The notes under the pieces were generated by a model. The model was not told where the DNA came from, did not search any database, and saw only the letters and a program-made list of their open reading frames with translations. Source: a virus. Taken from it: 20,373 bases of DNA. The translations under genes were made by a program, and so were the position numbers. This document shows, piece after piece, positions 437-17,183 of the stretch. Location: positions 1 through 20,373 of IMG/VR virus record IMGVR_UViG_3300035698_009557, one strand, 5' to 3'. Numbering within the stretch: position 1 is the stretch's first letter; the number at the start of each line of letters is the position of its first letter.

Positions 437-768
437 AAGAAGATAGAAAAGAAAAGCTACAGGATATTTTTGACTATAAATACATAGCATGTGTGTATAT
501 CAAAAAACCAGAATATTATTCGGAAGATTTTGAAGAGAAGACTAAGATCATGTTACAGGAAAAGAATCCAGGTAAAATTTTGAGTAATTATATTTTCCAT
601 ACTAAGGAAATGGTTTGCCCTATAACAAAAGAGATTTGCATAGGAGTAGGTATCGATTTTATCATAGCAGAGAATCGGGAAGGGTTTGAGGTAGCTAAAG
701 AGTTACTAAAGACAGGGGAAGGTAATACGATATTGAGAATGAAGAGAGATGATAGAGGTAAATCATGA
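433..768 (+). CDS. Hypothetical protein
   Basis: I do not recognise this 111-residue protein. It looks soluble, with no membrane segment or signal peptide. It begins with a charged helix (MKEDRKEKLQDIF), and the middle has two cysteines in MVCPITKEICIG at about residues 67-78. The C-terminus is a basic helix. The start is supported by the purine-rich AGGAGAGGAG just upstream (416-425) and by its ATGA overlap with the preceding gene. Its own stop overlaps the start of the next small ORF in the same way, so three small genes form one tightly coupled unit. Confidence 0.75.
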   Translation: MKEDRKEKLQDIFDYKYIACVYIKKPEYYSEDFEEKTKIMLQEKNPGKILSNYIFHTKEMVCPITKEICIGVGIDFIIAENREGFEVAKELLKTGEGNTILRMKRDDRGKS

Positions 769-923
769 ACCTAAAACTCACACTCACAAGGATAGCAAGA
801 TTTATGCCAAGAGTTAGAATCTATATGAATAATTATCCATTGTTTGGCATATTTATACATTGTGGGAGCAGGTCCGTAGAGTTGGGATATATAAGTGTAC
901 ATTGGCAAGTGAAAGCCATGTAA
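765..923 (+). CDS. Short hypothetical protein (52 aa)
   Basis: This short ORF encodes about 52 residues (MNLKLTLTRIARFMPRV...). Its ATG overlaps the previous stop as ATGA (765-768), and AGAGG lies six bases upstream at 754-758, so it is likely translated. The product is basic at the N-terminus with a hydrophobic middle (PLFGIFIH) and one Cys. The stop codon TAA (921-923) falls inside the palindrome at 917-941, so the end of the gene and the control site are interleaved. The function is unknown. It could also be an untranslated remnant, but the overlap and ribosome binding site argue for a gene. Confidence 0.5.
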   Translation: MNLKLTLTRIARFMPRVRIYMNNYPLFGIFIHCGSRSVELGYISVHWQVKAM

Positions 924-930
924 TTACATT
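902..930 (+). promoter_or_regulatory. Candidate sigma-70 type promoter overlapped by operator
   Basis: A TTGGCA (902-907, five of six consensus matches) and a TACATT (925-930, four of six) are separated by exactly 17 bases. The -10 hexamer lies inside the palindrome at 917-941. This is the usual geometry of a repressor-controlled promoter. It would give a leader of about 300 bases before the sigma-like gene at 1238. AT-rich DNA produces such matches by chance, so this is tentative. Confidence 0.35.
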
Positions 931-941
931 GTAATTACATG
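917..941. repeat. Perfect 25-bp palindrome made of two tandem TGTAATTACA sites
   Basis: The arms CATGTAATTAC (917-927) and its exact complement (931-941) flank a three-base ATT centre. Inside it the 10-base self-complementary word TGTAATTACA occurs twice (919-928 and 930-939), 11 bases apart, which is about one helical turn. That spacing would put two bound dimers on the same DNA face. It overlaps the end of the short ORF before it and a candidate -10 box. No T-run follows, so it is not a terminator; an operator is the likeliest reading. Confidence 0.7.
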
Positions 942-1237
942 TAGAAAAAACGTTCGGCACCATCGATAAAAAATCTTCTATAAGAACTCATGAATGATCG
1001 GCCATGATATAAGGTCTCAACTGTTCAAATACACACATATAAGCAGGTATATACGCACATAAAATAGCGAGTATAATAATTCACACATATTCTATAATGG
1101 GAGTATAAATAGTATCAAGTAATACTTTACCCATAGGGTAGATAATATAGGCCATTCATAAAGTGTATAATTATACAAGTTCAACTCATAACTCATAATT
1201 CATAATTCGCGAATCAAAAAGGGGAGGGCACTAAATC
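924..1237. promoter_or_regulatory. Non-coding control region rich in small palindromes
   Basis: I see no convincing ORF or tRNA in this stretch. Besides the end of the 917-941 palindrome it contains an AGTAT/ATACT inverted pair (1111-1126), TACCC-ATA-GGGTA (1128-1140), the perfect 14-base palindrome TGTATAATTATACA (1164-1177), three tandem 7-base units ACTCATA/ACTCATA/ATTCATA (1184-1204) and ATTCGCGAAT (1205-1214). TATAAT occurs at 1072-1077 and 1093-1098, but neither has a good -35 box. The density of symmetrical sites points to regulation of the sigma-like/terminase module that begins at 1238. Confidence 0.55.
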
Positions 1238-1615
1238 ATGAAGAATTTCGATATACTAAAGTATGAAAACTTATGCCATAAGATAGTTCACAAGGTTCTA
1301 CGTAAGTGCGATCACTCGCGTCTCTATGAAGATTGCATGCAGGAGGCGAGGATCGCACTTATAGAGGCAGACGATAGATATTTAAAAGAAAAAGGCACAA
1401 CGTTCACAACTTATGCCACATACATATTGAGGACAAGAGTACAAGAATTTCTGGCCTCTCAAAGATATCCAATAAGCATGTCTACATATACATATCGCAC
1501 GTTACAGAAGTTTTTTGCAACAGAAGGTAAAGGATTTAAAACAAAACAGTTAAAGAGTCTAAATGAATTAAAATCACTACTTACGATGGATGATATTTCT
1601 GATATAGAGATATAA
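1238..1615 (+). CDS. Short sigma-70 region-2-like transcription factor
   Basis: This 125-residue protein resembles region 2 of sigma-70 factors, which binds core RNA polymerase and melts the -10 element. Residues 31-47 (EDCMQEARIALIEADDR) match region 2.2, normally EDLxQEGxxGLxxAxxR. Residues 55-72 (TFTTYATYILRTRVQEFL) match regions 2.3-2.4. YPISMSTYTY (77-86) recalls the start of region 3. No region 4 helix-turn-helix follows, so it could not read a -35 box by itself. The start is preceded by GGGGAGGG (1221-1228). It lies just ahead of the terminase genes, so it may act in late transcription, as the T4 late sigma gp55 does. The sigma-like fold is a pattern judgement and needs a profile search. 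Confidence 0.65.
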   Translation: MKNFDILKYENLCHKIVHKVLRKCDHSRLYEDCMQEARIALIEADDRYLKEKGTTFTTYATYILRTRVQEFLASQRYPISMSTYTYRTLQKFFATEGKGFKTKQLKSLNELKSLLTMDDISDIEI

Positions 1616-1645
1616 AATAATGAAATGAAGACTAGGGAGGATAAT

Positions 1646-2395
1646 ATGCCAAGTGGAAAAGGTAAAGATATTAAGTATGATGCCATGAAGATTAACTCAA
1701 AATTCGCGACAAAGAAGGAAGAGGCTAAAGCTAAAGTGGAAGCTAAAAAGGTCAAGAAGAGAGAAGATAAACAAGACCTCATAAAGGCCAAGGCACAGAT
1801 ACAGATAGATAAACAGAAGGTAAAGGCAGCGGAATCAGCAGCAGCAGCAAAAGTGAGAGCTCAGAAGTCGGTTGCGAGCCCGAAGGGCGAGCCACCTACA
1901 CAGACTATAGATCTACTTAAACTATTAAGCACAAGGAAGTGGCAGGACATATTTAGGATGGGAGCTAAACCCGCAGAACATGAAGTGGAACTCACCAAAG
2001 CCGCGCTTACATTAGTGGCACAGTTTCCAAAGATATTTTTCCTATCACAGATATTTGGTATCATGGGGATTACTAAACACATGTTTTATAAACATATCTA
2101 TAAAGGTGAGAACATAGATGAAATAAACATACTCTTAAGAAGGAATAGAAGTATAGGCGCGATTATAGCAATGGATAGATTAGAGAAGTGCGGATCAGCG
2201 GCAGCCATTATAACAGAAATTAAGATTACCTCACCAGAGGCCAGACATATAATTAGAGACGAGTCAGATAGTAGTCATGAATCCGATAGAAAGGTTCTTA
2301 CAAGAGAGCAGAAGATTGAAGAGATTAAGAAGACTAAAAAGTTATTAGAGGTTAACACCGATAGCTCCGATGATGAGGAAGAAGCTGATGATTAA
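1646..2395 (+). CDS. Probable terminase small subunit (TerS-like)
   Basis: The call rests mainly on position: this gene lies immediately before, and overlaps, the large terminase gene. TerS binds phage DNA and passes it to TerL for packaging. The start at 1646 is preferred over ATG 1625 because GGGAGG (1635-1640) sits five bases before it. The 249-residue product has a Lys/Ala/Glu-rich helical N-terminus (about residues 20-85), then a hydrophobic middle with a helix-turn-helix-like stretch (IFGIMGITKHMFYKHI, about 137-152). It ends in a very acidic tail (SSDDEEEADD). The acidic tail might contact TerL. I recognise no TerS family signature, so another DNA-binding or scaffold role is possible. 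Confidence 0.55.
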   Translation: MPSGKGKDIKYDAMKINSKFATKKEEAKAKVEAKKVKKREDKQDLIKAKAQIQIDKQKVKAAESAAAAKVRAQKSVASPKGEPPTQTIDLLKLLSTRKWQDIFRMGAKPAEHEVELTKAALTLVAQFPKIFFLSQIFGIMGITKHMFYKHIYKGENIDEINILLRRNRSIGAIIAMDRLEKCGSAAAIITEIKITSPEARHIIRDESDSSHESDRKVLTREQKIEEIKKTKKLLEVNTDSSDDEEEADD

Positions 2396-3890
2396 TATTC
2401 CAGAAGATCAGCTAAGTAAACTCACAGATGAAGAGCTCGATCAACTCATGGAAAGTCTGGAAAAGTTAAAGATCATGAAGGAAGAGAATCTTATAGAATA
2501 CACAGATTGGGATTTCTATGCTAAGCAAGGAGACTTTAGAGCTAAAGTATTAAGAGCGGTTCGCACCAAGAAGGGAAAGTCTATATTTGTGGTATTTGGT
2601 GGCAATAGATCAGGTAAGTCAGTTATGGGATCATCAATAGTGGCAGAATTATTTGCAAAGGATGAAAACTTAAATATCTGGTGTGCAACAGAGGCAGATG
2701 CAAGTATAAAGACTCAGCAACCTCTACTACATGAGTGGATACCTAAAAATTCAATTAAAGAAGGTGACTTTAATCATAGTCGTGGATGGAAGAATGGGAT
2801 CATAGAAGGTAAGACAGGGACAAGGATCTGGTTTAAGACATACAGCCAAGACAGGAGATCATATCAGGGCGCCACCTTAGATATGGTCCACTTTGATGAG
2901 GAATGCCCTTATGATATATACCAAGAGTGTTTGGCTCGCGTCATGGATAGAGCAGGAATTATATTATTTACGTTTACCTCTCTTATGGGATTTACGCGGC
3001 TCGTGAACAAACTCTATGACGATAAAGATCCTAAGATGGCAAAATTAGTTGAGAGAATCACTTTATCACAGCTGGATAATCCTTATGTGTCAGATAAGAA
3101 GAAGGCTAAGTATAGAGCTGGATGTGACCCAGATGAAATAGACTCAAGAATTTATGGCAAGCCTATGCAGAAAGAAGGATTAATTTATAAAGAGTTTAAA
3201 GATTCGCACATAATGAAACCGTTTGATTATATTGAGAAATGGATGAATGATAAAGACAGATGGGAAATCTATGAAGGTATAGATCCACACTTAAGAACAC
3301 CTCACCACTGGGCGAGATTCGTATATGATAAAGTTAATAATATCCTATTTCTCGTAGATGAGTTAAAGGCACCAAAGGAGGCCATGGTTATCTCAGAATT
3401 TGCGGCTCTCATAAAAGAGAAGAGGGCTTATAAAGGTAAAGAGATTAAGCCAAGGTATTGTCAGATAGATACGAGTTCACAGATGCCCATACCTATGAAA
3501 GGATTTGGAGAAAATGTTCAAGAGGACTTCACTATAAGGACAGAATTTGCTAAAAGTGGTATACCAACTATATTATGTCAAAAGGATAACTCTATAGGGA
3601 TAGCCGCTGTTAAGAAAAGGTTAATGTTCAATAAGACAGCCACTCAAAAAAATATCGCTGGCTTATATATATTTTCTACATGCACCACCACAGTGTTTGA
3701 ATTAAGGCGTTATTCATGGGCCTCTCACATGTCAGCAAAAGTTGAGGAGAGAAAAGGTGAAATGAACGCCATTCAAAAAAAGAACGACCATTTATGTGAT
3801 ATCATAAAATATCAATGTATAAAACTTATTAACGGAACTATGAAGAAGATTAACTGGAAGAATCCAGCAGACAGGTTTAGAATACAATAA
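2388..3890 (+). CDS. terL: Terminase large subunit, DNA-packaging ATPase/nuclease
   Basis: TerL drives DNA into the procapsid and cuts the concatemer. From the start used here (500 residues) the ATPase shows Walker A GGNRSGKS (71-78), Walker B MVHFDEE (166-172) and a coupling motif FTFTS (194-198). The C-terminal RNase H-like nuclease shows candidate metal-binding Asp residues in GIDPH (D299), QIDTS (D361) and NDHLCD (about D467/D471). ATG 2388 is chosen over ATG 2370 because AGGAAG lies just before it. It overlaps the preceding gene by eight bases. It ends just before the first late-promoter-like box. Length and motif order fit Terminase_6-type enzymes. Confidence 0.93.
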   Translation: MINIPEDQLSKLTDEELDQLMESLEKLKIMKEENLIEYTDWDFYAKQGDFRAKVLRAVRTKKGKSIFVVFGGNRSGKSVMGSSIVAELFAKDENLNIWCATEADASIKTQQPLLHEWIPKNSIKEGDFNHSRGWKNGIIEGKTGTRIWFKTYSQDRRSYQGATLDMVHFDEECPYDIYQECLARVMDRAGIILFTFTSLMGFTRLVNKLYDDKDPKMAKLVERITLSQLDNPYVSDKKKAKYRAGCDPDEIDSRIYGKPMQKEGLIYKEFKDSHIMKPFDYIEKWMNDKDRWEIYEGIDPHLRTPHHWARFVYDKVNNILFLVDELKAPKEAMVISEFAALIKEKRAYKGKEIKPRYCQIDTSSQMPIPMKGFGENVQEDFTIRTEFAKSGIPTILCQKDNSIGIAAVKKRLMFNKTATQKNIAGLYIFSTCTTTVFELRRYSWASHMSAKVEERKGEMNAIQKKNDHLCDIIKYQCIKLINGTMKKINWKNPADRFRIQ

Positions 3891-3891
3891 A

Positions 3892-3916
3892 TACCACCTA
3901 TATTAAGAATGGAGGT
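3892..3916 (+). promoter_or_regulatory. Late-promoter-like box, copy 1 (portal unit)
   Basis: The sequence TACCACCTATATTAAG is followed by AATGGAGGT. It is identical to copy 2 over 23 bases and has one A/T difference from copy 3 over the same stretch. The GGAGG of the box is also the ribosome binding site of the portal gene, whose ATG is at 3922. If transcription starts at the GG (3911), the leader is only about 11 bases long. No terminator is visible upstream, so portal genes could also be read from the terminase transcript. Confidence 0.75.
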
Positions 3917-3921
3917 GACAT

Positions 3922-6003
3922 ATGGAAGAAAATATGGAAGATAATGAAGAAAACAAAGCCTTTCTTGCAAAAATAGAGGAAATGGTTGGACAACAGAATA
4001 TAGTAAATTATTTCTTAGGATTAAAGAAAAAGTATGAAGACCAACGTATTAATTATGAGAGTGACTGGGATGAAGCCTTATTAATCTATTACAATGAAAA
4101 AGAATTAGGAAAAGTATATGATGGCTATTCAAATATAAGAGTTCCAGAAGTTGATAAAAAGGTGAATGGAGTAGTATCAAGAATAGAATCTATACTCTTC
4201 AATGTGCCAAGAATAGGAAGAATCGCAGCAGAAGAAACATCCATGATTGATAAAGATATAGTAACTCTACAAAATAGATACATCTTTGAGAATCAATTAT
4301 CAGACATTGGATTTCATGAGAGTTATCATAACTTTAACTTATTACAGGCAATTCAAGGATCAGCAGTTGCTAAAATTTCACAAGAGTATGAAGTGAAAAA
4401 TATGTCAGATCAAGAGGTTGTAGTTAAAGATAATACTTATTTTAGGCCGCATCCATTGCGCTCTTTTTACTCAGATATCACACATCAGAATATTCAAGAT
4501 AGTAAAGCTAACATTTTATCTACAGAAATTTCCTTTGAAGAAATTAGAAAGAACATGAAGAGAACAGTTAAGGAAATGGTTGAAGTAACTGATGAATTTG
4601 GAAATGTAACAGAAGAAGAGCAGGAACATGAAGAGGGATACTTTATAAATGTTAATATGATTGATCCAACAGGTATAAGTGAAGAGCTTGATGGATATTT
4701 CTCAATTATTGGAATAAGCGATGCAGGTAGAAGTAGTTTTAATTCTCACCTTAAAGAGACTAAAAAAACAGGTATGGTTTCCATATATGAATGTTATGGA
4801 TTATGCGACATAGATGGAGATGGAGAAGAAACAGAGGTCTTAGTAGTCATTGCTAATGGAAATGTAATTATTAGAATAGAAGAAACACCTTATAAACATA
4901 GGCGATACGTTAGGCCATCTATTTTTGGCACATATAAATCTCGCCCATTATGCTTGTATGGAGAATCTAATGTTATCAAAGGTATGCAATTAACACAGGA
5001 ATTAAATGCGTCGAGAACGCAGGTTACAGATGCTAAGGGATTCTCAATATTTCCAATGACTTATGTAAATACTTCTGCAACTATAGACTGGGATGGAGTA
5101 TGGCGTCCAGGTGGGATTATAAGAGGTGATTTACCAGAAATACCTATTAAGTCAATCATTAATCCTAACCTTTCAAATATTGCCATGTCAGATGCACAAG
5201 TAGTTCAGAGAGACTTAGATGAACTTTGGTCTATGTCACCAGTTCAACAAGGAACGTCAGATGCAAGACATTTACCAGAGACAGCAGGGGCAACTAATGC
5301 TTTAATAGCACAAGGTGAATATGTCTTAGATTCTATAGTTCAACATAAAGTGGAAACAGAACTTAAACCTTTGTTTGAAATCTTATTTGAGAGAAATCTA
5401 ACATTTAAGACTATTGATCAAATGGCACAAGTTTTAACAGAAGAAGAAATAAAGACTTTAGATCTGAATCAAGCAATGGATCTATCGAGCTTAGTGTTTA
5501 TGGGGACGGTTAAAATCCTGGGAAACATGAAGCTATCAAAAGAGAGACAAACTCAGCAAGGATATGAAAGGTTACTAACACTAACTCAACAAATACCCAA
5601 TTTAGCTCGGAGAATAGAGTATAAGAAATTAACAGAGCGACTCTTAGCAAGCTATGGGATTATGGACGATTCGAGTGACCTATTTATATCTGAAGAGAGT
5701 GTTCAAGAACAACTAGCTGCTGAACAAGAACAGCAACAAGCAATGCAACAATTGCAACAGCAAGTAGCCCAAGCACAGCAAGTCATGCAGGAGCAGCAAA
5801 ACCAAGTTCAGCAGTTAGCTAAGCAAAACCAACAATTAATTAAAGAGGTTCAACAAACAGAGTCCACGGAGGCTTATTTGGCTAAGCAGGAAATAGATTT
5901 ACAGGTAGAAGCGGCTAAGAATGCAGATAAGACAGAACAGAAGACAATAGAAAGGGTAGCAGAAGCAGAAATAGAGCAACAATCTGGATCTAAAGTAAAT
6001 TAG
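3922..6003 (+). CDS. Portal protein
   Basis: The portal is the dodecameric ring through which DNA enters and leaves the capsid and on which the neck assembles. The 693-residue length, the position straight after TerL and the sequence style fit podovirus-type portals. Examples are the N-terminal YESDWDEALLIYYNE, the stem region SDIGFHESYHNFNLLQAIQGS and the conserved-looking RHLPETAGATNALIAQGE at about residues 452-469. The last about 100 residues are a Gln-rich coiled coil (QEQQQAMQQLQQQVAQAQQ and onward), as in the extended barrel of some portals. The ribosome binding site GGAGGTGA (3911-3918) belongs to promoter-like box copy 1. Confidence 0.88.
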   Translation: MEENMEDNEENKAFLAKIEEMVGQQNIVNYFLGLKKKYEDQRINYESDWDEALLIYYNEKELGKVYDGYSNIRVPEVDKKVNGVVSRIESILFNVPRIGRIAAEETSMIDKDIVTLQNRYIFENQLSDIGFHESYHNFNLLQAIQGSAVAKISQEYEVKNMSDQEVVVKDNTYFRPHPLRSFYSDITHQNIQDSKANILSTEISFEEIRKNMKRTVKEMVEVTDEFGNVTEEEQEHEEGYFINVNMIDPTGISEELDGYFSIIGISDAGRSSFNSHLKETKKTGMVSIYECYGLCDIDGDGEETEVLVVIANGNVIIRIEETPYKHRRYVRPSIFGTYKSRPLCLYGESNVIKGMQLTQELNASRTQVTDAKGFSIFPMTYVNTSATIDWDGVWRPGGIIRGDLPEIPIKSIINPNLSNIAMSDAQVVQRDLDELWSMSPVQQGTSDARHLPETAGATNALIAQGEYVLDSIVQHKVETELKPLFEILFERNLTFKTIDQMAQVLTEEEIKTLDLNQAMDLSSLVFMGTVKILGNMKLSKERQTQQGYERLLTLTQQIPNLARRIEYKKLTERLLASYGIMDDSSDLFISEESVQEQLAAEQEQQQAMQQLQQQVAQAQQVMQEQQNQVQQLAKQNQQLIKEVQQTESTEAYLAKQEIDLQVEAAKNADKTEQKTIERVAEAEIEQQSGSKVN

Positions 6004-7940: not shown

Positions 7941-7969
7941 ATGGCCCTTAGCGGGGTCATTTTATTTTT
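7941..7969 (+). terminator. Rho-independent terminator after scaffold gene
   Basis: A seven-pair stem joins 7941-7947 to 7954-7960, with one G-U pair and a six-base loop. It is followed by TTTATTTTT. It closes the portal-to-scaffold unit directly before promoter-like box copy 2. Confidence 0.8.
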
Positions 7970-7993
7970 ACCACCTATATTAAGAATGGAGAC
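7969..7993 (+). promoter_or_regulatory. Late-promoter-like box, copy 2 (capsid unit)
   Basis: TACCACCTATATTAAG followed by AATGGAGAC starts at the very end of the terminator T-run. It is the only promoter candidate for the major capsid gene, whose coding region begins about 225 bases downstream. The terminator-then-promoter order isolates capsid expression from the upstream unit. Confidence 0.75.
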
Positions 7994-8216: not shown

Positions 8217-9326
8217 ATCGCAGATCAACAATCGACTCATGCATCCCTCTCTAGTGTAGTTAATACTTACTATGAAAAGCAGATGTTAGAAGTCTTTGAA
8301 CCAGAAACACATTTTTATAGATTAGCATCAAGAAGAACCACAATAGCAACAAGTTCAGGTAAGACAGTAGAATTTTCAAAATATCCATCAATTGCAGCAG
8401 TTGCATCAGATGATACCTCAGAATTAGCATCAACTCAAACGTATCAATCAGCTGAAGTTATTACAGCAACAGTTAGAAAAAGAAGTAGATATGTACAAAT
8501 TTCACACATTGCAGATATTATAGCTTTTGGTGATCCACTACAGCAAGCAATGAATAACTTAAGAGAATCAGCAGTTAAAACTCTTGATATTCTTGTAAGA
8601 AACGACATGGCTTTCGTAGTTGCAGACGTTGCAAATTATTCAGGAGTAAACGCTCAGAATTTAGCTATTGATAATGGTGGCACTCTTCATTCATCAGGTG
8701 TTACAGCAAGATTATGGACTACTGATCAGAATAACGGTACAACTGTTCCAACTAAAGGTTTTGATATGTGGCACAATAAAGCTGACTTAGCACAGTCTAG
8801 TACTGTTGTTTCAATTGCTAAATCTGCTATGACTTTCAAAACAGTTCAATCAGCAGTTAATAGACTTCAGGGTAGAAATATCCCAATGGTTAATGGAGCG
8901 TATCAAGGTATTGCTCATCCAACTACTATTTACCAACTACGAACATCAGCTGGTCTTAAAGGTTGGTTATCTCCTACATCAGCAGATGGTGGAAAAATTA
9001 ATCCAACAGATGAAGGAACTATCGCAGGCGTTAATTTCCATAGATCAACTTTAGCTTACAGATATCCATTGTCAGGTGATACATTAGTGGCAAGTTCAGG
9101 TGCAATTTTCGGAACATTGATATTTGGTTCAGGAGCTTATGGTACTATCGATATCGCGGGTGCAAATTCTGGTAAAGGTTTCAGTGTTCTAATGAAACAA
9201 GCTGGACCAACCACTACAAGTGATCCAACCGGAGTTATTAAGACAGCAGCATTCTTACTATACGGTGCAGGAAAAATTCTTGATAAAACAGCAGGACTTT
9301 GGGTAGTAACTACTGAAGTTGTATAA
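8217..9326 (+). CDS. Major capsid protein, N4-gp56 type, probable ATC start
   Basis: This is the shell protein, about 369 residues with the start used here. It resembles the N4-gp56 major capsid family: an N-terminal YYEKQMLEVFEP helix, then GKTVEFSKYPSIA, the RKRSRYVQISHIADI segment and AVKTLDILVRNDM. The first ATG in frame is 8283, but it has no ribosome binding site and would cut off 22 residues that read like a normal capsid N-terminus (ADQQSTHASLSSVVNTYYEK). AAGGAG (8202-8207) is nine bases before ATC 8217, where a homologue would be expected to have ATG. An in-frame stop at 8208-8210 excludes longer versions. A terminator follows. Confidence 0.87.
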   Translation: MADQQSTHASLSSVVNTYYEKQMLEVFEPETHFYRLASRRTTIATSSGKTVEFSKYPSIAAVASDDTSELASTQTYQSAEVITATVRKRSRYVQISHIADIIAFGDPLQQAMNNLRESAVKTLDILVRNDMAFVVADVANYSGVNAQNLAIDNGGTLHSSGVTARLWTTDQNNGTTVPTKGFDMWHNKADLAQSSTVVSIAKSAMTFKTVQSAVNRLQGRNIPMVNGAYQGIAHPTTIYQLRTSAGLKGWLSPTSADGGKINPTDEGTIAGVNFHRSTLAYRYPLSGDTLVASSGAIFGTLIFGSGAYGTIDIAGANSGKGFSVLMKQAGPTTTSDPTGVIKTAAFLLYGAGKILDKTAGLWVVTTEVV

Positions 9327-9350
9327 GTTTTTGTAGAATAGAATAAATGA

Positions 9351-9380
9351 AGGGAGGGGAGAAATCCTCTCTCTTTTTTT
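9351..9380 (+). terminator. Strong rho-independent terminator after capsid gene
   Basis: A ten-pair stem (9351-9360 with 9365-9374, two of them G-U) closes a GAAA tetraloop and runs into seven T residues (9374-9380). It ends the capsid transcript. Box copy 3 begins about 20 bases downstream. Confidence 0.9.
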
Positions 9381-9401: not shown

Positions 9402-9426
9402 TACCACCTATATTAAGTATGGAGAC
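9402..9426 (+). promoter_or_regulatory. Late-promoter-like box, copy 3 (sugar cassette)
   Basis: TACCACCTATATTAAG followed by TATGGAGAC is placed after the capsid terminator and ahead of the SpoVG-like gene. It is the only visible promoter candidate for the ten-gene cassette that extends to 16405. Confidence 0.75.
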
Positions 9427-9721: not shown

Positions 9722-11431
9722 ATGAAATTAGATATTTTTATACCATGTACAAGAAGTAATAAATTAGATAGATTAATTCAATCAGTTATTGACCAGAAGA
9801 TTGAAGGAACAAGGATTAGTATTTATAATGATTCTGGAAATAAAGAAGTAAATGATATAGTTTCTAAAGCTATGGGAAATCAAGCAACTGTTTCAATTCA
9901 TTTACAGCAAAGGTTTGGAAGAGATTCCAATAAATGCAAAGGAGCCTCATTCGCACGTAATCAAGCTTTTGAGATGACTTCAGAAGATGAAGATACAGAT
10001 GGTCCAGCAGAGTACCTATTATTTATAGATGATGATTGTATTTTAATGCCAGGGATAATCCAGAACATGATTGATATCATGGACAAGGACTCTGGCATTT
10101 CTTTTGTTTATGGAGACTATGAATTTGATTCAGGTAGTGTATTTAAATCAAGAAAGTTTAATCCATACGTGTTAAGAACTCACAATTATATTCCAACAAT
10201 GTCACTTATGAGAAAGAAAGTTTATGAGAAAGTTAAAGGGTTTAATGAAAATCTTGACTACTTTCAAGATTGGGCATTCTTCTATCAAGCGGCAAAGAAG
10301 GGATTTATTGGTAAGTATCTACCAGAGGTAATATTTAAAACATCAGACGCAGACGAAGGATCTATTTCTGGAATTAAATTATCTCTAAACGAAAAGTCCA
10401 AGATTTGGAGAAAGGAAAATAAAGTTAAAGACTCTAAGCTTGTAGTTACTACTTTTGCAGCACAACTACAAGCAGAGCAAAGAGCTGAAATGTTAAATGC
10501 AGACTATGCTGGCATGATGAGTTCATCAGCAGGTGTATTCCCAAATAACTTAAGATTTGATAATTGGGATTGTTCATATATGATTGGCACATTTAATTAT
10601 CCAACTACAGCTTTAATCAATCACATGAATGCAATGGTAGGTCATAAAATAATGCATTTCATTGGTACAGATGTCTTTCAACTAAGAGAAAAGCATGCTT
10701 GGATAAAATTACAACTAATTAAAGATGAACTCATAAGAAGAAAGATTAGAGTACTATCTAATTCTGAGGTTTTAAGAGATGAACTCAATCAGATAGGAAT
10801 AGAGAATAAATTAGTATATACACCAATTTATAACATTGATAGGTTCCAAATGTCAACAACACCAGAACAGTTCACAGTGGCTGTGTATTACTCTGATACT
10901 CCAAATATGAATTTCTTAGATGTACGTAACGATCCATTAAATAACAATAACAATGAGTCTAATATGTACCTTATATGGGAAGTAGCTAAGGCAATGCCTA
11001 ATATTAAGTTTAAGTTCTTTGGTGGACCTGCAGTATTTAAGACAGAGAACGTAGAGTTTTGTGGAAGAATACCAAGTAATAAAATGCCAGAATTTATAGA
11101 ATCATGTTCAATGGTTTTAAGATGCACGGTTCATGATGGTTTTCCACAACTACCCATTCAGTTCTTATTATCTGGACGTGGCGCTTTAGCTTCATATCAA
11201 GGAGAGGATTTAAAGTATGTAGACAAATTAAGCTTTACTGATATTCTACATTATGAAAATTGTAAAAATGAAGTAATGGATAGAATTGATATTTGTAGAA
11301 AGAGTCCACAGGGATTTCAATACAATGCTTTAATAAGACAGTATTACACTGAATTACTAAGTGTACCCACCTATAGGAAAGAAATAAAAAAAATAATGAA
11401 GGAGTTTAAAAATGTCAAAAAACAAAAATAA
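9722..11431 (+). CDS. Two-domain glycosyltransferase (GT-A plus GT-B-like)
   Basis: The N-terminal part (about residues 1-215) is a GT2-type GT-A domain. It has LDIFIPCTRSNKLDRLIQSV at the start, a metal/nucleotide-binding FIDDDC motif at 101-106, and QDWAFFYQAAKKG, which corresponds to the acceptor-side ED motif. The C-terminal half (about 300-530) looks like a GT-B fold transferase, with NIKFKFFGGPAV, FCGRIPSNKMPEFIESCSMVLR and HDGFPQLPIQFLLSGR. The 569-residue protein may therefore transfer two sugars. AGGAGG (9712-9717) precedes the start. It overlaps the next gene by 20 bases. Targets could be virion proteins or host surface glycans; the sequence does not say which. Confidence 0.82.
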   Translation: MKLDIFIPCTRSNKLDRLIQSVIDQKIEGTRISIYNDSGNKEVNDIVSKAMGNQATVSIHLQQRFGRDSNKCKGASFARNQAFEMTSEDEDTDGPAEYLLFIDDDCILMPGIIQNMIDIMDKDSGISFVYGDYEFDSGSVFKSRKFNPYVLRTHNYIPTMSLMRKKVYEKVKGFNENLDYFQDWAFFYQAAKKGFIGKYLPEVIFKTSDADEGSISGIKLSLNEKSKIWRKENKVKDSKLVVTTFAAQLQAEQRAEMLNADYAGMMSSSAGVFPNNLRFDNWDCSYMIGTFNYPTTALINHMNAMVGHKIMHFIGTDVFQLREKHAWIKLQLIKDELIRRKIRVLSNSEVLRDELNQIGIENKLVYTPIYNIDRFQMSTTPEQFTVAVYYSDTPNMNFLDVRNDPLNNNNNESNMYLIWEVAKAMPNIKFKFFGGPAVFKTENVEFCGRIPSNKMPEFIESCSMVLRCTVHDGFPQLPIQFLLSGRGALASYQGEDLKYVDKLSFTDILHYENCKNEVMDRIDICRKSPQGFQYNALIRQYYTELLSVPTYRKEIKKIMKEFKNVKKQK

Positions 11432-12173
11432 GAGTAAGAGTAAGGCATTAAAATTAGTTCCATTACTAGACGAACCAGTTTTAGAAAAAGACTTAACTCT
11501 ATCATTTGTAATGCCAGTCTATAATGAACAGGCAAATATAGCTGATAGCATAAGGTCTTTATTCTCGCAAAATATTCCTGGACAAATAGTAATTATAGAT
11601 GATTGTTCTACTGATCAGACTTTGGAAATTATAGAAACTTTTAGATCAAGAATAGAAGATAAGAATGGGATTATAATTAAAAATACCAAAAGGAAAGGAT
11701 CAGCATGGTGTAGAAATCTTGGAACAAATAAAGCATCAGGAGATATTATACTTGTATGTGATGCCGAGGTTTATCCTAAGGAGAGATCTGAAGCAGCTAT
11801 TGAGATTTTTACAAAACATAAAGAATATGGAGTAATGTATTCAGCTTATCAATTGAGACCTGCAAATGACTTATACAATGTTTTCGAAGTTCCAGTACAA
11901 GAGTGGGATTTTGAAAGTAAATGTACTATCTCACATCCGAGTGTATGTTATAGAAGATCAGTAGCACTTTCTCATCCATATCTAGAGGAAACATTGGATT
12001 CTGATCTATTTGAATTTATGTTACTAGATATGCATAAGGCTGGGGTTAAATTTGCACCTTGTAATAATGTTTTAATGAAAAAGATAGAAGGTAATACAAA
12101 TAGAGACATGACAGCTTCTAAGGAAATTAAATCTGCCAAATATAAAGAATATGGTCTGGAGGTTAAATTATAA
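11412..12173 (+). CDS. GT2 family glycosyltransferase
   Basis: This is a typical GT2 (GT-A fold) sugar transferase. After a Lys-rich N-terminal tail (about residues 1-14), FVMPVYNEQANIADSIRSL (32-50) is the first nucleotide-binding strand and helix. IDDCSTD (62-68) is the classic GT2 motif, and CDAEVYP (116-122) stands where DxD normally lies, here read as DAE. No membrane segment is seen, so the enzyme is probably cytoplasmic. The 253 residues suit a single catalytic domain. The ATG has AAGGAG upstream and lies inside the previous gene. The stop shares a base with the next start (TAATG). Confidence 0.85.
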   Translation: MSKNKNKSKSKALKLVPLLDEPVLEKDLTLSFVMPVYNEQANIADSIRSLFSQNIPGQIVIIDDCSTDQTLEIIETFRSRIEDKNGIIIKNTKRKGSAWCRNLGTNKASGDIILVCDAEVYPKERSEAAIEIFTKHKEYGVMYSAYQLRPANDLYNVFEVPVQEWDFESKCTISHPSVCYRRSVALSHPYLEETLDSDLFEFMLLDMHKAGVKFAPCNNVLMKKIEGNTNRDMTASKEIKSAKYKEYGLEVKL

Positions 12174-12361
12174 TGATTATACCAAGTATTAAAATTACCT
12201 CAAAGGAAATCGTGTTAACTATACCAATTGATTCAATTAATGATGATTTTGGGCATATTTTAAATGATGGATATAACAAAATGTTTAAAGATGCAATAAA
12301 TAGTAGATCAGGTTGGAAAATACCGTATGAAAATATAAGAAATAAATTAGAGGAGAATTAA
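12173..12361 (+). CDS. Small hypothetical protein
   Basis: I do not recognise this 62-residue protein. It starts with strand-like IPSIKITSKEIVLTIPI and ends in a helix. The preceding gene ends in TAATG, which gives this gene its start, and CTGGAGG lies upstream, so translation is likely. It is followed after one base by the next small gene. It sits within the sugar cassette with no indication of a catalytic role. Confidence 0.65.
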   Translation: MIIPSIKITSKEIVLTIPIDSINDDFGHILNDGYNKMFKDAINSRSGWKIPYENIRNKLEEN

Positions 12362-12362
12362 A

Positions 12363-12644
12363 ATGAGTAATGATAAAACAAAAGCCCCAAGAGCAGATAA
12401 CAAGTTAGAAGCAGTATTGCAACATATTTCAATGGATATAGAAGATGTAACTGATTTAGTTAATAAATTAAATATAATGATCGGCTGCCTTATGACTGAT
12501 GAACACCCAGCGCTCGATTCTCAAAAAAATGACTCTGTTCAGCCACCAGAAGGAGATATTTATGGAAAAACTGATCATTTAAAAAATCAATTAGATAGAT
12601 TAAAAGATAAATTACATAGTACTCTTGATAGAATAGACCTATAA
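12363..12644 (+). CDS. Small hypothetical coiled-coil protein
   Basis: I do not recognise this 93-residue protein. It has two predicted helical parts, EAVLQHISMDIEDVTDLVNKLNIMIG (about 16-41) and LKNQLDRLKDKLHSTLDRI (about 73-91), joined by a Pro/Gly/Asp-rich linker. The second part reads as a short coiled coil, so oligomerisation is plausible. GAGGAG (12351-12356) precedes the start. It lies between the glycosyltransferases and the DUF1617-like gene and might belong to virion assembly rather than sugar chemistry. Confidence 0.65.
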   Translation: MSNDKTKAPRADNKLEAVLQHISMDIEDVTDLVNKLNIMIGCLMTDEHPALDSQKNDSVQPPEGDIYGKTDHLKNQLDRLKDKLHSTLDRIDL

Positions 12645-12668
12645 TAAATAAAAATTAAGGAGAAAAAC

Positions 12669-13040
12669 ATGAAAGTAACACTTAGAGAAATTTACAACGG
12701 AAAAGAAGCACTGGAAAGACTTATCGTACTTAAGACACCATTTAAAACATCATACAGATTAGCAAGACTAACAGCTGAGATAGGTAAAGAGTTGGAGTTA
12801 TTTGTAGAGAAAAGAAATGATTTAATTAAAGAACTTGGCACAGAAAATGAAAAAGGTGAGTTATGGATTGATAAAGATGACCACGCAACTCTAGAAAAGT
12901 TTAATAAATCATTAAATGAAGGTATGGATCTAGAAATTGAACTTAAGACAAAGAAATTTTCACCAGAGGATTTTGGTACTGTAGAAATACAACCAACTGA
13001 ATTAATTATGTTGGAATTCATGATGGATATGGGAGACTAA
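12669..13040 (+). CDS. Phage protein resembling DUF1617
   Basis: This 123-residue protein has the pattern of a small phage family I know as DUF1617, of unknown function. It opens with MKVTLREIYNGKEALERL, continues with TSYRLARLTAEIGKELELFVEKRNDLIKELG, has a short polar turn, and closes with a hydrophobic C-terminal helix (TELIMLEFMM). In other phages such genes are found near structural genes. AAGGAGAAA lies upstream of the ATG. The match is from memory and should be confirmed by a profile search. Confidence 0.55.
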   Translation: MKVTLREIYNGKEALERLIVLKTPFKTSYRLARLTAEIGKELELFVEKRNDLIKELGTENEKGELWIDKDDHATLEKFNKSLNEGMDLEIELKTKKFSPEDFGTVEIQPTELIMLEFMMDMGD

Positions 13041-13045
13041 AAGTT

Positions 13046-13672
13046 ATGAGATTTAAATCACAGGAAGATTCTGAGAATTATCATAAAAATAATTACAAAT
13101 CATCAGGTGTATCTAAGGGGAGGTACTCTTTTGGTACTTCTTCTTATAATCTTGGTAGATGGGTAGCAGATCAGGTTCTACCTAATTCTAAAGTATTAGA
13201 TTGTGGGTGTAATTCTGGTGTACTCGGTAAATTATTAAAAGATAAAAATTGTTACATAAATGGAATTGATATAGTACCTTCATTAGTAGAAGAGGCTAAG
13301 AAAAATGGGATATATGCAGAGGTTGGCTCAGTATGTAACCTTGAGAGCTTTAAAAACAAACAGTTTGATTGCGTAGTGTGTGTAGAGGTTCTAGAACATC
13401 TATTTGACCCTATTAAGGCAATTAAAGAGGCTCACAGAGTACATAAGAAGGGTGGTATGTATGTTATGAGCTTTCCAAATGGCTCTATAGAGAAAATTAA
13501 AGGATTAGGAGACTATCATCATAAAGATTACTCAATGAATGATGTATTATCACTAATAAATAAAGCAGGTAAGAATAAATTTTCTGACCTTATAGTCTAT
13601 GAAATCCCAAGATCTCAAAATGGAGTACAAGGATCAGAAGCTCATTGGTATGGATTTAAACTAATTAAATAA
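13046..13672 (+). CDS. SAM-dependent class I methyltransferase
   Basis: The protein has a Rossmann-type methyltransferase domain. Motif I is VLDCGCNSG (50-58), the acidic end of strand 2 is GIDIV (D75), and the post-motif VCVEVLEHLFDP (111-122) is typical of Methyltransf_11/23 enzymes such as UbiE/UbiG-like ones. GGMYVMSFPNG (137-147) fits strand 5. The 208 residues cover the whole domain. It sits among glycosyltransferases, so the methyl acceptor could be a sugar or capping residue, but the substrate cannot be read from the sequence. GGGAG (13031-13035) lies upstream of the start. Confidence 0.85.
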   Translation: MRFKSQEDSENYHKNNYKSSGVSKGRYSFGTSSYNLGRWVADQVLPNSKVLDCGCNSGVLGKLLKDKNCYINGIDIVPSLVEEAKKNGIYAEVGSVCNLESFKNKQFDCVVCVEVLEHLFDPIKAIKEAHRVHKKGGMYVMSFPNGSIEKIKGLGDYHHKDYSMNDVLSLINKAGKNKFSDLIVYEIPRSQNGVQGSEAHWYGFKLIK

Positions 13673-13686
13673 TAAGGGAGTAAAAA

Positions 13687-14604
13687 ATGAATAAAAAATA
13701 TGATAAGACTATTGGAATTATTGGGTATGGAATGTTAGGTGAAGCATTCGAATATGTTTTCGCTCCAAAATGTAACATTTGTATTAACGATTTAGCTTAT
13801 CCAGTAGATAATAAGAAGTTTTTTTCCAAGAAAGAGGTAGTTTTAAGGTCAGATGTCATCATTGTTGGTGTACCGACCCCTTATTCGCTCTCTGATGGAT
13901 ATATACCAAATATCCTTGATGGTGTATTAACTGACCTTGATAATGAGGCTAGAGAGGTTGGATTAATAGCTGTTGTGCTAATTAAGAGTGCTATGTTACC
14001 GTCTCATGTAAAGGAAGTTAGTAAAAAGTATAAAAACCTGGACATTTTAGTATCTCCAGAGTATTTATCAGGAGCAGCTAATATTGCGGATAATGTTCAT
14101 TCAAATATTCACGTAATAGGTGGAAGTACAGATAGCTATAACTTAATAAAGGACATTATACTAAACCATTCAATTTTAAACTGTACATGGTCTAATCCAG
14201 AAATACATCATTGCTCAGCTGTTGATGCCGCACTTATTAAATATGCAGAGAATACTTTTTTAGCTATGAAATGTGTTTTCTTAAGTAGGATACATAAATT
14301 ACATGAAAAGATTAAAACACATGATAGTGTAAGCTTTAATAAATGGATTTCACTATGGCAACTAGATCCTAGAATGGGTTCATATCCTTATAAAATACCT
14401 TATCCAGGTCCATTTGGTGATGAATTAGGATACGACTCCCACTGCCTTCAGAAAGATTCATACGCTTTAGAAGAGGAATTTGAGAGACAAAATGTAGATT
14501 CAGGGATTATCTCAAATATAATAGATGACAATCTTGATCTTAAAAAGGACTTTTTTGATGGAACATGGAGAGGAAAGGCAACTTCTGGTGGACTAATAGA
14601 ATAA
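13687..14604 (+). CDS. Short UDP-glucose/GDP-mannose dehydrogenase-like protein
   Basis: These enzymes oxidise a nucleotide sugar to its uronic acid with two NAD+. The NAD-binding GYGMLG is at 13-18, VGVPTPYS (60-67) and KSAMLP (100-105) follow, and SPEYLSG (123-129) carries a catalytic Glu. K185 and N189 in KYAENTF and C253 and D257 in SHCLQKD keep the spacing of the known catalytic residues. The protein has only 305 residues, where the family usually has about 400-450, and the C-terminal UDP-binding domain appears absent. It may act on an unusual substrate or pair with another subunit. GGGAG precedes the start, and the stop shares a base with the next gene. Confidence 0.8.
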   Translation: MNKKYDKTIGIIGYGMLGEAFEYVFAPKCNICINDLAYPVDNKKFFSKKEVVLRSDVIIVGVPTPYSLSDGYIPNILDGVLTDLDNEAREVGLIAVVLIKSAMLPSHVKEVSKKYKNLDILVSPEYLSGAANIADNVHSNIHVIGGSTDSYNLIKDIILNHSILNCTWSNPEIHHCSAVDAALIKYAENTFLAMKCVFLSRIHKLHEKIKTHDSVSFNKWISLWQLDPRMGSYPYKIPYPGPFGDELGYDSHCLQKDSYALEEEFERQNVDSGIISNIIDDNLDLKKDFFDGTWRGKATSGGLIE

Positions 14605-15284
14605 TGTTAGAATTAAATTTAAATAGTATTAAAAAAGACATTCAAAAATCTAGATTACATTCTATGTGTAATGAAATAAGATTATCAACACTATATAAAT
14701 CAGTTCAATTAATGCAAAATATAGAAGGAGATCTAGTTGAGATAGGAGTATGTAGAGGTGGTTCATCAATGTGTATGGCTTATTCATCTATGAGAATTAA
14801 TACTCTTAAGAAAATTCATTTATATGATACTTTTGCAGGAATGAGTATACCTTGTGAATATGATTTAAAAATACACACAGTTAATACACCTGAATATACA
14901 ATGACTAAATGGGAAGATAAGCAAAAGAAAGATCATAATGAATGGTGTTATGGAGCCCTTTCTGAAGTTAAATCAAATATGAGTTCAACTAAATATCCAG
15001 AGGAATTAATTTCTTATAATGTGGGTGATATTTCCGAAAATTCTACATTTATTCCAGAAAAAATCTCTATATTAAGAATAGATGTCGATTTCTATGAAGC
15101 AACTAGAGCATCTTTAGAGAAGTTCTGGGATAGATTAGCAGTTGGTGGAACTTTAATTATGGATGATTATGGATGTTGGTCAGGTGCTAAAAAGGCTTGG
15201 GATGATTTCGCTAAAGGTAGAGGAATTTTAACAGAATTAATTATAATAGACAAATCTGCAGTATACTTTGTAAAGGAGAAATAA
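14604..15284 (+). CDS. TylF/MycF-like O-methyltransferase
   Basis: TylF-type enzymes methylate sugar hydroxyl groups using SAM and a metal ion. The matching elements are GDLVEIGVCRGGS (42-54, SAM binding), HLYDTFAGM (72-80), LRIDVDFYEATRASLEKFW (157-175) with the metal-binding Asp residues, and MDDYGCWSGAKKAW (186-199). The length of 226 residues fits one domain. I use ATG 14604, which overlaps the previous stop as TAATG, rather than ATG 14565, which lies inside the previous gene. Together with the dehydrogenase-like and transferase genes it suggests that a methylated sugar is made or installed. Confidence 0.85.
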   Translation: MLELNLNSIKKDIQKSRLHSMCNEIRLSTLYKSVQLMQNIEGDLVEIGVCRGGSSMCMAYSSMRINTLKKIHLYDTFAGMSIPCEYDLKIHTVNTPEYTMTKWEDKQKKDHNEWCYGALSEVKSNMSSTKYPEELISYNVGDISENSTFIPEKISILRIDVDFYEATRASLEKFWDRLAVGGTLIMDDYGCWSGAKKAWDDFAKGRGILTELIIIDKSAVYFVKEK

Positions 15285-16405
15285 TGAACATACTATATAT
15301 AAATACAATGAATTTAAATGTATCCTACTTTCGTGTTGAGAATCCAGCTCAAACATTAGTGAAGTTAGGTAAGAAGAATGGTGACATAGTGCATGTTGAA
15401 TATTTTGTTCATCCAGATTATCAATATACTTGGGAAACAGTTATGTATTCTGGAGGGAAAGACTCTGAGATAATTATTGAATCACTTAAATCAGCTTTTC
15501 AACATTTTGATATAATAGTAATTCAAAGATTAGGCGATATGAGAACAGTTGATTTAGTTAATAGATTAAAGGATGAATGTGGAACTAAGTTATTTTTAGA
15601 GCTTGATGACTCGCTAGATAAATCATCTCAGACAGCGCTTAGAATTAACTCTAATAAAGTAGTTCAAGCAAATATGGCACTAGCATCAACATGTGATGGA
15701 ATTATTTGTTCAACTGATTATTTGGCAAATTCTATGAAAAAATACAATAAAAACACTTATGTATTCAATAACTTCATTGCAGATAAAAATTGGAAGTTTA
15801 AAAAGGCAAAAGAAGAAAGTGATAGATGGAGAGTAGGATATTTAGCAGCTTCTGGACACGATCACGATCTAGAGGCTATATGGCCAGAATTAATGGAATT
15901 CATCGAATCTGACCCTATGAATGAGCTCGTAATACGCTATGGAGGGTATATTCCATCATTTATAGATGAGAATCATCCTCAGATAGATTACAGTAACCTC
16001 TCGTGTCACATATCAAAGTACCCTCAAAAGTATGAAGATCTAGGGTTGAACTGTGCAATTGCTCCATTACGAGATCTAGAGTTTAATAGATGTAAATCAG
16101 AAATCAAAGTTTTGGAAGCATTTACTCATAGAATACCAGTGGTGGCATCAGATATGGAAGTGTATAACAATAGTAAAGTAAGTAAATTAAAAGGTAGAGG
16201 TTTATATCTTGCCAATAGAGGTCACTGGGTAGAAGAATTACAAAAGGCTAAAGATGATAAAATATTTGTTGATAAAGAATATTCAAGGAAACTATATAGC
16301 CCAGTAGGTATGGCAAAAGGTTTCAGAGAATGGTTAGTTTTAAATAATAGATTTAACTACGATAAACCAATTTTTAACAAAGAAAAGTACTCCTTTAATA
16401 TTTAA
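15284..16405 (+). CDS. GT-B fold glycosyltransferase (GT4-like)
   Basis: This 373-residue protein looks like a GT-B transferase. Its N-terminal domain ends in LELDDSL (105-111). The second domain starts with VGYLAASGHDHDLEAIWP (184-201), a form of the GxxGSxTHxxDL segment of GT4-like phage and bacterial enzymes. IAPLRDLEFNRCKSEIKVLEA (259-279), then IPVVASDMEVY, form the donor-sugar site. AAGGAG (15271-15276) precedes the ATG, which overlaps the preceding stop (TAATG). Its stop codon is the first part of box copy 4, so the cassette ends exactly where the tail promoter begins. Confidence 0.82.
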   Translation: MNILYINTMNLNVSYFRVENPAQTLVKLGKKNGDIVHVEYFVHPDYQYTWETVMYSGGKDSEIIIESLKSAFQHFDIIVIQRLGDMRTVDLVNRLKDECGTKLFLELDDSLDKSSQTALRINSNKVVQANMALASTCDGIICSTDYLANSMKKYNKNTYVFNNFIADKNWKFKKAKEESDRWRVGYLAASGHDHDLEAIWPELMEFIESDPMNELVIRYGGYIPSFIDENHPQIDYSNLSCHISKYPQKYEDLGLNCAIAPLRDLEFNRCKSEIKVLEAFTHRIPVVASDMEVYNNSKVSKLKGRGLYLANRGHWVEELQKAKDDKIFVDKEYSRKLYSPVGMAKGFREWLVLNNRFNYDKPIFNKEKYSFNI

Positions 16406-16427
16406 CACCTATATTAAGTATGGAGAC
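16403..16427 (+). promoter_or_regulatory. Late-promoter-like box, copy 4 (neck/tail unit)
   Basis: TAACACCTATATTAAG followed by TATGGAGAC differs from copy 3 by a single base (C to A at the third position). It begins in the stop codon of the last cassette gene. Unlike copies 2 and 3, a terminator-like hairpin lies downstream of it and before the gene it should serve. Confidence 0.72.
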
Positions 16428-16439
16428 TACAACCCAAGA

Positions 16440-16489
16440 GGCAGTCTGTACAATTACCCCCTTTTTTGTACAGGTTGCCTTTTTTATTT
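16440..16489 (+). terminator. Rho-independent terminator between box 4 and adaptor gene
   Basis: A stem of at least 13 pairs joins 16440-16452 to 16467-16479, with two G-U pairs. The loop is a pyrimidine-rich stretch, and TTTTTTATTT follows. It would end transcripts of the sugar cassette, but it also lies about 18 bases after the expected start of transcripts from box copy 4. Confidence 0.88.
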
Positions 16490-16502: not shown

Positions 16503-17183
16503 ATGCCAAGTACTGGACAATCATTACTTAACTTACTAGAAGAACATATAGACGTAGGTGAAACAAGTTCGTCTACAGACCCAACACAATCTCTTTTAGT
16601 CAAATATATAAATATTGCACAAAGAAAAATAGCTTTCCAATTAAAGCCATCAATTCTTAAAAATACTACAGGAACAGATGTTTCAGTAGTATCTGGAGCG
16701 ACATCAGCTGCTGTGCCAGCTACTATATTACAAGTAGATAAAGTCTTTTATATGACTACATCTAAAACATATGTAGAGTTGGTAAAAAAGAAAATAGATA
16801 ATGTAATAAATCCAAGTAACTATTTTGATTCAGATAATACAGTTACTCCTAATTTTTATGAAATAAGAGGTGGTAGTATTGTTATAGATTCACCTTTTCA
16901 ATCAACATCAGCTGCAGGACTTAAAGTATTTGGAATGAGTGCACCAACTGATTTATCAATAGCAGATCTTTCACCTGAAGTTACACTACCAGCAGAATAT
17001 GATATGTTAATAACTTATAAAGCTGCAGGTTTTTATTATTTGAAAGATGATGACTCTAAAAACTTTGGTTTACAGAAAAGATTGGAAACAATGGAATTAG
17101 CAGAGTTAAGATCTATTCTAGAAGATAATTTTCCAAAATCAATAACTCTTGATCGAAACTTCTTTTTAAGAGGAGATAGATAA
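16503..17183 (+). CDS. Head-tail adaptor / tail tube A-like neck protein
   Basis: By position and style this 226-residue protein is the adaptor that docks under the portal in podoviruses (roles of T7 gp11 or P22 gp4). It begins with helices SLLNLLEEHID and SLLVKYINIAQRKIAFQL. A beta-rich middle follows (VDKVFYMTTSKTYVEL, IRGGSIVIDSPF), then the typical LPAEYDMLITYKAAGFYYLKDDD at about residues 162-184 and a C-terminal helix. AGGAGG (16491-16496) is a very strong ribosome binding site. The next gene starts one base after the stop. Confidence 0.72.
   Translation: MPSTGQSLLNLLEEHIDVGETSSSTDPTQSLLVKYINIAQRKIAFQLKPSILKNTTGTDVSVVSGATSAAVPATILQVDKVFYMTTSKTYVELVKKKIDNVINPSNYFDSDNTVTPNFYEIRGGSIVIDSPFQSTSAAGLKVFGMSAPTDLSIADLSPEVTLPAEYDMLITYKAAGFYYLKDDDSKNFGLQKRLETMELAELRSILEDNFPKSITLDRNFFLRGDR

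Follow-up and report, generated by a model that had tools for sequence, protein, structure and literature searches.

What directs transcription of the late genes in a stretch of viral DNA that carries both a small sigma-like gene and a set of repeated, promoter-like boxes? The window, as we call the whole stretch that was analysed, is the entire virus record IMGVR_UViG_3300035698_009557 (20,373 bp), an incomplete fragment. Its sigma-like gene stands upstream of all four boxes, and the initial annotation had proposed that the gene product, a factor with region 2 alone, could read them.

The 125-residue protein and its gene neighbourhood

The ORF at positions 1238–1615 (+ strand) has an ATG start codon and a AAGGGGAGG ribosome-binding site and encodes 125 amino acids. 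It and the genes that bear on its role are as follows.

924..1237, + strand: noncoding leader of 314 nt before the sigma gene, with no ORF of 50 aa or more
1238..1615, + strand: sigma-like protein, 125 aa (Pfam, PHROG, PDB and NCBIfam matches; AlphaFold2 model); region 2 at residues ~12–76, a region 3.0-like helix at residues ~77–95, then a 30-residue tail
1625..2395, + strand: probable small terminase subunit gene, terS (from its position before terL and a short similarity to the equivalent ORF of locus L105)
2370..3890, + strand: large terminase subunit gene, terL (Terminase_6N, 3.3e-14)
3922..6003, + strand: portal protein of SU10 type, behind box 1 (SU10_portal, 2.6e-17)
8217..9326, + strand: major capsid protein, behind box 2 (PHROG 1357, 1.5e-21, and relatives)
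16503..17183, + strand: adaptor protein of SU10 type, behind box 4 (SU10_adaptor, 2.2e-12)

Residues 12–76 of the 125-aa protein match Pfam Sigma70_r2 (E 9.2e-10, 38.6 bits, cut-off 24), and residues 6–95 match PHROG 351, a sigma factor family (3.6e-13); the match to NCBIfam sigma70-ECF (3.9e-9) lies under that model's whole-protein cut-off, as is expected because the protein is a single domain. Its closest sequence relatives are the housekeeping sigma factors SigA/RpoD (phmmer 3.9e-7, 21 of 72 residues identical), and the best PDB matches are SigA chains, which align without gaps to residues 24–95, a span that comprises region 2 and the first helix of region 3 (region 3.0). Profile scans of the protein gave no match to region 4, and only 30 residues follow the region 3.0 helix. 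Given this short tail, and given that terS begins 10 nt past the sigma stop codon, the gene looks compact rather than truncated. The initial annotation had recognized region 2, perhaps the start of region 3, and no region 4, and these matches agree with it. We consider the identification of the product as a sigma region-2 protein to be firm at the level of sequence; this is the claim made here, not membership among complete sigma-70 proteins, and some accepted phage sigma factors (gp55) are also without region 4.

Comparison with SigA shows that the protein keeps the equivalents of E. coli sigma 70 D403, Q406 and E407, which we take to be core-binding residues, and of F427 and Y430, which we take to function in melting of the -10 region. 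Changed, on the other hand, are the equivalents of W433/W434, Q437, T440, H455 and E458, presumably the residues that read the -12 position and the extended -10. Such a pattern would fit a sigma factor of altered specificity that reads ACC plus a hexamer (below).

An AlphaFold2 model made from single-sequence input (pLDDT 70.6) is helical, with a region-2-like order of helices. In VIA-align this weak model reaches Z 5–6 against many sigma 2 domains (residues 1–77) and unrelated helical folds reach Z 7, and a Foldseek search with it returned no match at E <= 0.001; because unrelated helical folds score as high, the model appears to add little to the sequence evidence for sigma identity. A gp55-like clamp epitope was considered for the C-terminus (TMDDISDIEI), which is hydrophobic and acidic, and rejected, since its likeness to gp55 SLDFLYEAND is too generic. 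Short "phage" matches to the sigma protein in human faecal records were likewise discarded as being in reality bacterial dnaG-rpoD operons. Two records named "Bacteriophage sp." from human faeces (L020 and L021; MT837412.1 and MT839157.1) contain dnaG-rpoD operons with full-length SigA and are apparently mislabelled bacterial DNA.

The gene order is sigma, terS, terL, portal, with box 1 at 3892, and the sigma gene opens the module ahead of the first box, as had been noted from the sequence. Only weak sigma-70-like sites are present in the leader, which presumably holds a host-type promoter for the sigma gene. Because the portal and adaptor proteins belong to SU10 families, the virion module can be assigned to the phiEco32/SU10 type.

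Three other features of the virion region deserve mention. The capsid gene seems to start at 8217–8222 with ATC, since its frame closes nine bases upstream and a strong AAGGAG precedes it; the capsid genes of L102 (below) and L022 begin ATG-GCN-GAY-CAA-CAA at the place equivalent to 8217, and the ATC there is either a near-cognate start codon or a sequencing error. Between the capsid and adaptor genes (9722–16405) there is a cassette of glycosyltransferase-like, methyltransferase-like and dehydrogenase-like genes, kept across the clade and partly reordered, which perhaps serves glycan decoration of the virion. Finally, a Gln/Glu-rich protein with repeats (e.g. EFQTTQSELDRLQQKELQGNQLTADE) occupies 18760–20373 and runs off the fragment; its L102 homologue is shorter.

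Box families in the window and its closest relative

The window contains four near-identical 23-bp boxes (TAMCACCTATATTAAGWATGGAG), all on the + strand, which is the gene strand. They are listed here with the terminator-like hairpins that accompany them.

3892..3914, + strand: box 1, ahead of the portal gene (3922), with a GGAG that doubles as the ribosome-binding site
7941..7960, + strand: terminator-like hairpin right before box 2 (hairpin search)
7969..7991, + strand: box 2, ahead of the major capsid gene and 9 nt past the terminator-like hairpin
9349..9376, + strand: terminator-like hairpin ahead of box 3; the equivalent place in L102 has a GGCC hairpin and a T run
9402..9424, + strand: box 3, before ORF 9419/9467, ~25 nt past the terminator-like hairpin
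16403..16425, + strand: box 4, before the adaptor gene (16503)

The 13-base box core, [AC]ACCTATATTAAG, occurs four times on the + strand, never on the - strand, and never in 300 dinucleotide shuffles. The boxes carry the -10-like hexamer TATATT, and no -35 element is conserved across the four, conservation ending ~8 bases before ACCTAT; the earlier description of four boxes with TATATT and no -35 was correct. In box 2 the -35 position overlaps the terminator hairpin. Between box 4 and the adaptor gene (16436–16483) lies an 18-pair hairpin followed by a T-rich run (z -2.1), which as a terminator would block the unit headed by box 4; there is no such hairpin in the shorter gap of L102.

Collecting relatives of the window required alignment-based searches, as single-protein searches with the sigma protein, TerL or the capsid protein alone found none. 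The closest relative found is L102 (IMG/VR 3300027901_000227, 22,562 bp), which is 59% identical to the window in TerL, 53% in portal and 54% in capsid protein. Some 50 further loci complete the clade, and those compared are 42–53% (TerL) and 42–50% (capsid) identical to the window. A cultured-phage collection yielded no clade member at close range, and a search of host genomes with the capsid alignment gave no match. The L102 contig ends inside terL, exactly where the sigma gene would lie.

An independent search for intergenic repeats in L102 found a box family, AACCTATTA, which occurs five times in the whole contig, each time on the gene strand. Three of the copies coincide in position with window boxes 1, 3 and 4 (before the portal gene, the 9419 homologue and the adaptor gene), two extra ones precede 3310 and 21902, and none precedes the L102 capsid gene. 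That L102 has a box family of its own, with three copies so placed, is the new observation here; the boxes are real and positionally conserved in the relative, their reading as promoters is the more credible for it, and we consider it likely that they are promoters. When the nine boxes of the two genomes are aligned, ACCTAT is common to all, its TAT being the start of the -10-like hexamer (TATTAT in four of the five L102 boxes and TATTAC in the other). The two genomes differ at positions -6 to +4 from the supposed start; what their boxes share is the -16..-7 core, which sigma regions 2.4/3.0 would contact. Five of the nine boxes (box 1 of the window and four in L102) are followed within ~35 nt by a Shine-Dalgarno sequence and start codon, which requires the box itself to be upstream of the transcription start. 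Terminator-like hairpins precede two window boxes and one L102 box.

No comparable boxes were found in the clade records examined other than the window and L102, and a search with the L102-type box recovered L102 itself as the only relative. An exact search of viral contigs for the box gave 11 contigs with one copy each, all in the same stretch of an unrelated phage family and with no second box, which we ascribe to coincidence; a lone match to the box core before the L122 portal gene, again with no second copy, was treated as chance. Sigma70_r2 is absent from 37 other clade records, all of them fragments, of which 12, with some near-duplicates among them, extend 3 kb or more upstream of terL. 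Replication, packaging and methylation genes are represented in a non-redundant set of 82 clade proteins, each of about 140 aa or longer, and the families listed for this set include no transcription enzyme. When regions upstream of clade genes were scored for sigma-70 promoters, only a few TTGACA sites gave a clear signal. In L126 and L023, where no sigma gene or boxes were detected, there are repeated AATTAWTAGTTGACA motifs (e.g. at L126 930, 3868, 5651 and 5768) that are sigma-70-like -35 elements, which suggests that these two use host-type promoters. Just upstream of terL, L023 also has a long run of 25-residue repeats (DUF4116-like) that extends through several adjacent genes (562–4546).

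Candidate readers of the boxes

With moderate confidence we favour a model in which late promoters of a single element are served by the host core RNA polymerase together with a minimal phage sigma factor, as in phiEco32 with gp36; the 125-aa protein is, on balance, the probable reader of the boxes. To judge from the retained residues, its region 2 would dock on the host core at the beta-prime clamp helices. Promoter opening would need the box core alone, in which ACC is flush with the -10-like hexamer (TATATT in the window, TATTAT in the relative), and transcription would start ~7 bases downstream, at the G of GGAG. As for timing, we infer that a host-type promoter would first drive the sigma-terS-terL unit and that the sigma factor would then turn on the portal, capsid, 9419 and adaptor units, two of these four late units being insulated by terminators from upstream reading. 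The original proposal that a region-2-only factor reads the boxes has thus gained the L102 boxes at three orthologous places, the shared -16..-7 core and the failure to find a T7-type polymerase gene in the fragments searched (below); its direct link between protein and boxes is still one that we infer. Counting against the model, the sigma gene sits with terS and terL, which have no box, and the window boxes show near-identity over an unbroken 23 bases with GGAG included, reminiscent of the stretch from -17 to +6 in T7-type promoters. The part of the genome beyond the 20-kb fragment may also encode a single-subunit polymerase or a partner with region 4.

A stricter version of the favoured model can be put forward only tentatively. 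In it a free-standing sigma factor, consisting of region 2 and the region 3.0 helix and having neither region 4 nor a partner, would bring host RNA polymerase to late promoters of a single element, in which related phages retain the ACC-hexamer core but let the start-proximal half drift. If this is true, the 125-aa protein would be among the smallest self-sufficient sigma factors. The protein could instead be the region-2 half of a split sigma factor, with a region-4/flap-binding partner elsewhere (cf. SigO-RsoA and gp55-gp33), an arrangement that seems rather doubtful to us and whose estimate overlaps that of the main model, of which it is a sub-case. There are precedents in SigO-RsoA, with sigma 4 and sigma 2 on two proteins (PMC8103513), and in T4 gp55 plus gp33, described as a split sigma (PMC2988020), and a lone region 2 would otherwise be weakly held; however, no region-4 match was found among the scanned window ORFs, and a region 4 would find no -35 element to read in the boxes. 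Because gp55 works with gp33 and RsoA with SigO, a partner encoded outside the fragment is a serious possibility.

It is unlikely that a single-subunit (T7-type) RNA polymerase, with its gene outside the fragment, uses the boxes as its promoters and that the sigma-like protein has some other role. The 23 contiguous near-identical bases do end in TAT-GGAG(A), comparable to the TATA-GGGAGA at the end of T7 promoters, and the incompleteness of the 20,373-bp record leaves room for such a gene. On the other hand, neither the window nor any of 26 clade records (all fragments) matches PF00940 in a search that gave 9.9e-110 for the T7 control, and between the window and L102, two genomes only, the upstream half (ACCTAT) is kept and the start-proximal half differs. 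In the T7, T3, SP6 and K11 promoters it is the start-proximal CACTATAG that is kept and the upstream part that differs. A shared ACCTAT with a divergent downstream half would appear to suit sigma 2.4/3.0 better than a T7-type polymerase. The initial annotation had named a single-subunit polymerase gene as one thing to look for; none turned up in those fragments, and the contiguous 23-bp box would suit such an enzyme as well.

Less probable again is that a host sigma-70-type holoenzyme, with a phage activator or otherwise, reads the boxes, or that they are operators for a regulator, and that the sigma-like protein acts on host genes. TATATT and TATAAT are good sigma-70 -10 elements and the window box has a partial dyad, CC-N4-TTAA-N4-GG, but the dyad is lost in L102, conservation reaches no further than ~20 bases ahead of the supposed start and takes in neither a -35 nor an upstream activator site, and ACC, being flush with the -10, would be too close for a separate activator. 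Finally, the 125-aa protein could be a remnant without function, or could mimic a sigma factor and sequester core RNA polymerase or an anti-sigma factor, but we consider this very improbable: region 4 is missing and W433/W434 are replaced, but the ORF is intact, with a strong ribosome site and in a tight operon, the core-binding and melting residues are kept, and there is no decayed region 4, since terS starts 10 nt later.

Comparison with known systems

The favoured model of a region-2 sigma factor acting with host polymerase would show in minimal and testable form what a sigma factor requires, namely one domain and one short promoter element. It would also enlarge the small group of phages known to run their late genes with their own sigma factor and the host polymerase by a lineage that apparently has no cultured members, and the two related promoter families would be material for the study of joint change of a sigma factor and its promoters.

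phiEco32 gp36, which is reported to have no region-4 homology, uses host core polymerase and single-element promoters (tAATGTAtA) that lie before middle and late genes and start transcription 6–8 bp downstream (PMC8948821). Like the window protein it is a phage sigma factor with a recognizable region 2, and phiEco32 shares SU10-type portal and adaptor families with the window, where single-element boxes, putative promoters, stand before late genes at orthologous places in two genomes. It differs in having 214 aa with a long C-terminal part, only a weak Sigma70_r2 match (0.002), a different consensus (ACCTATWWT in the window and L102) and a gene that lies in the middle-gene block rather than before terS; BLASTP found no significant similarity between the two proteins. 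In T4 gp55 sigma similarity is confined to domain 2, and the late promoters have a -10-type element only (PMC2988020), and in both respects the window system resembles it; gp55 is longer, however (185 aa; Sigma70_r2 0.087), BLASTP found no similarity to the window protein, and no gp33 or sliding clamp was seen within the 20-kb fragment. The T4 late system, first offered as the precedent, is a sound one, and phiEco32 gp36 is closer because it shares the SU10-type portal and adaptor and its sigma factor reads single-element late promoters.

B. subtilis RsoA, the small 9-kDa member of the SigO-RsoA pair (PMC10141391), is also a small stand-alone region-2 protein; it is bacterial and acts together with SigO on its promoters (PMC8103513), whereas no SigO-like partner was found in the window fragment. 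T7-type promoters resemble the window boxes in being 23-bp contiguous boxes on one strand before structural genes, and differ in the half that is conserved between relatives, which is the opposite one, and in the polymerase gene, which was not found here. In comparison with SigA/RpoD, the window protein is without region 1, most of region 3 and region 4, and its specificity residues are changed; by sequence it is closer to these housekeeping sigma factors than to gp36 or gp55.
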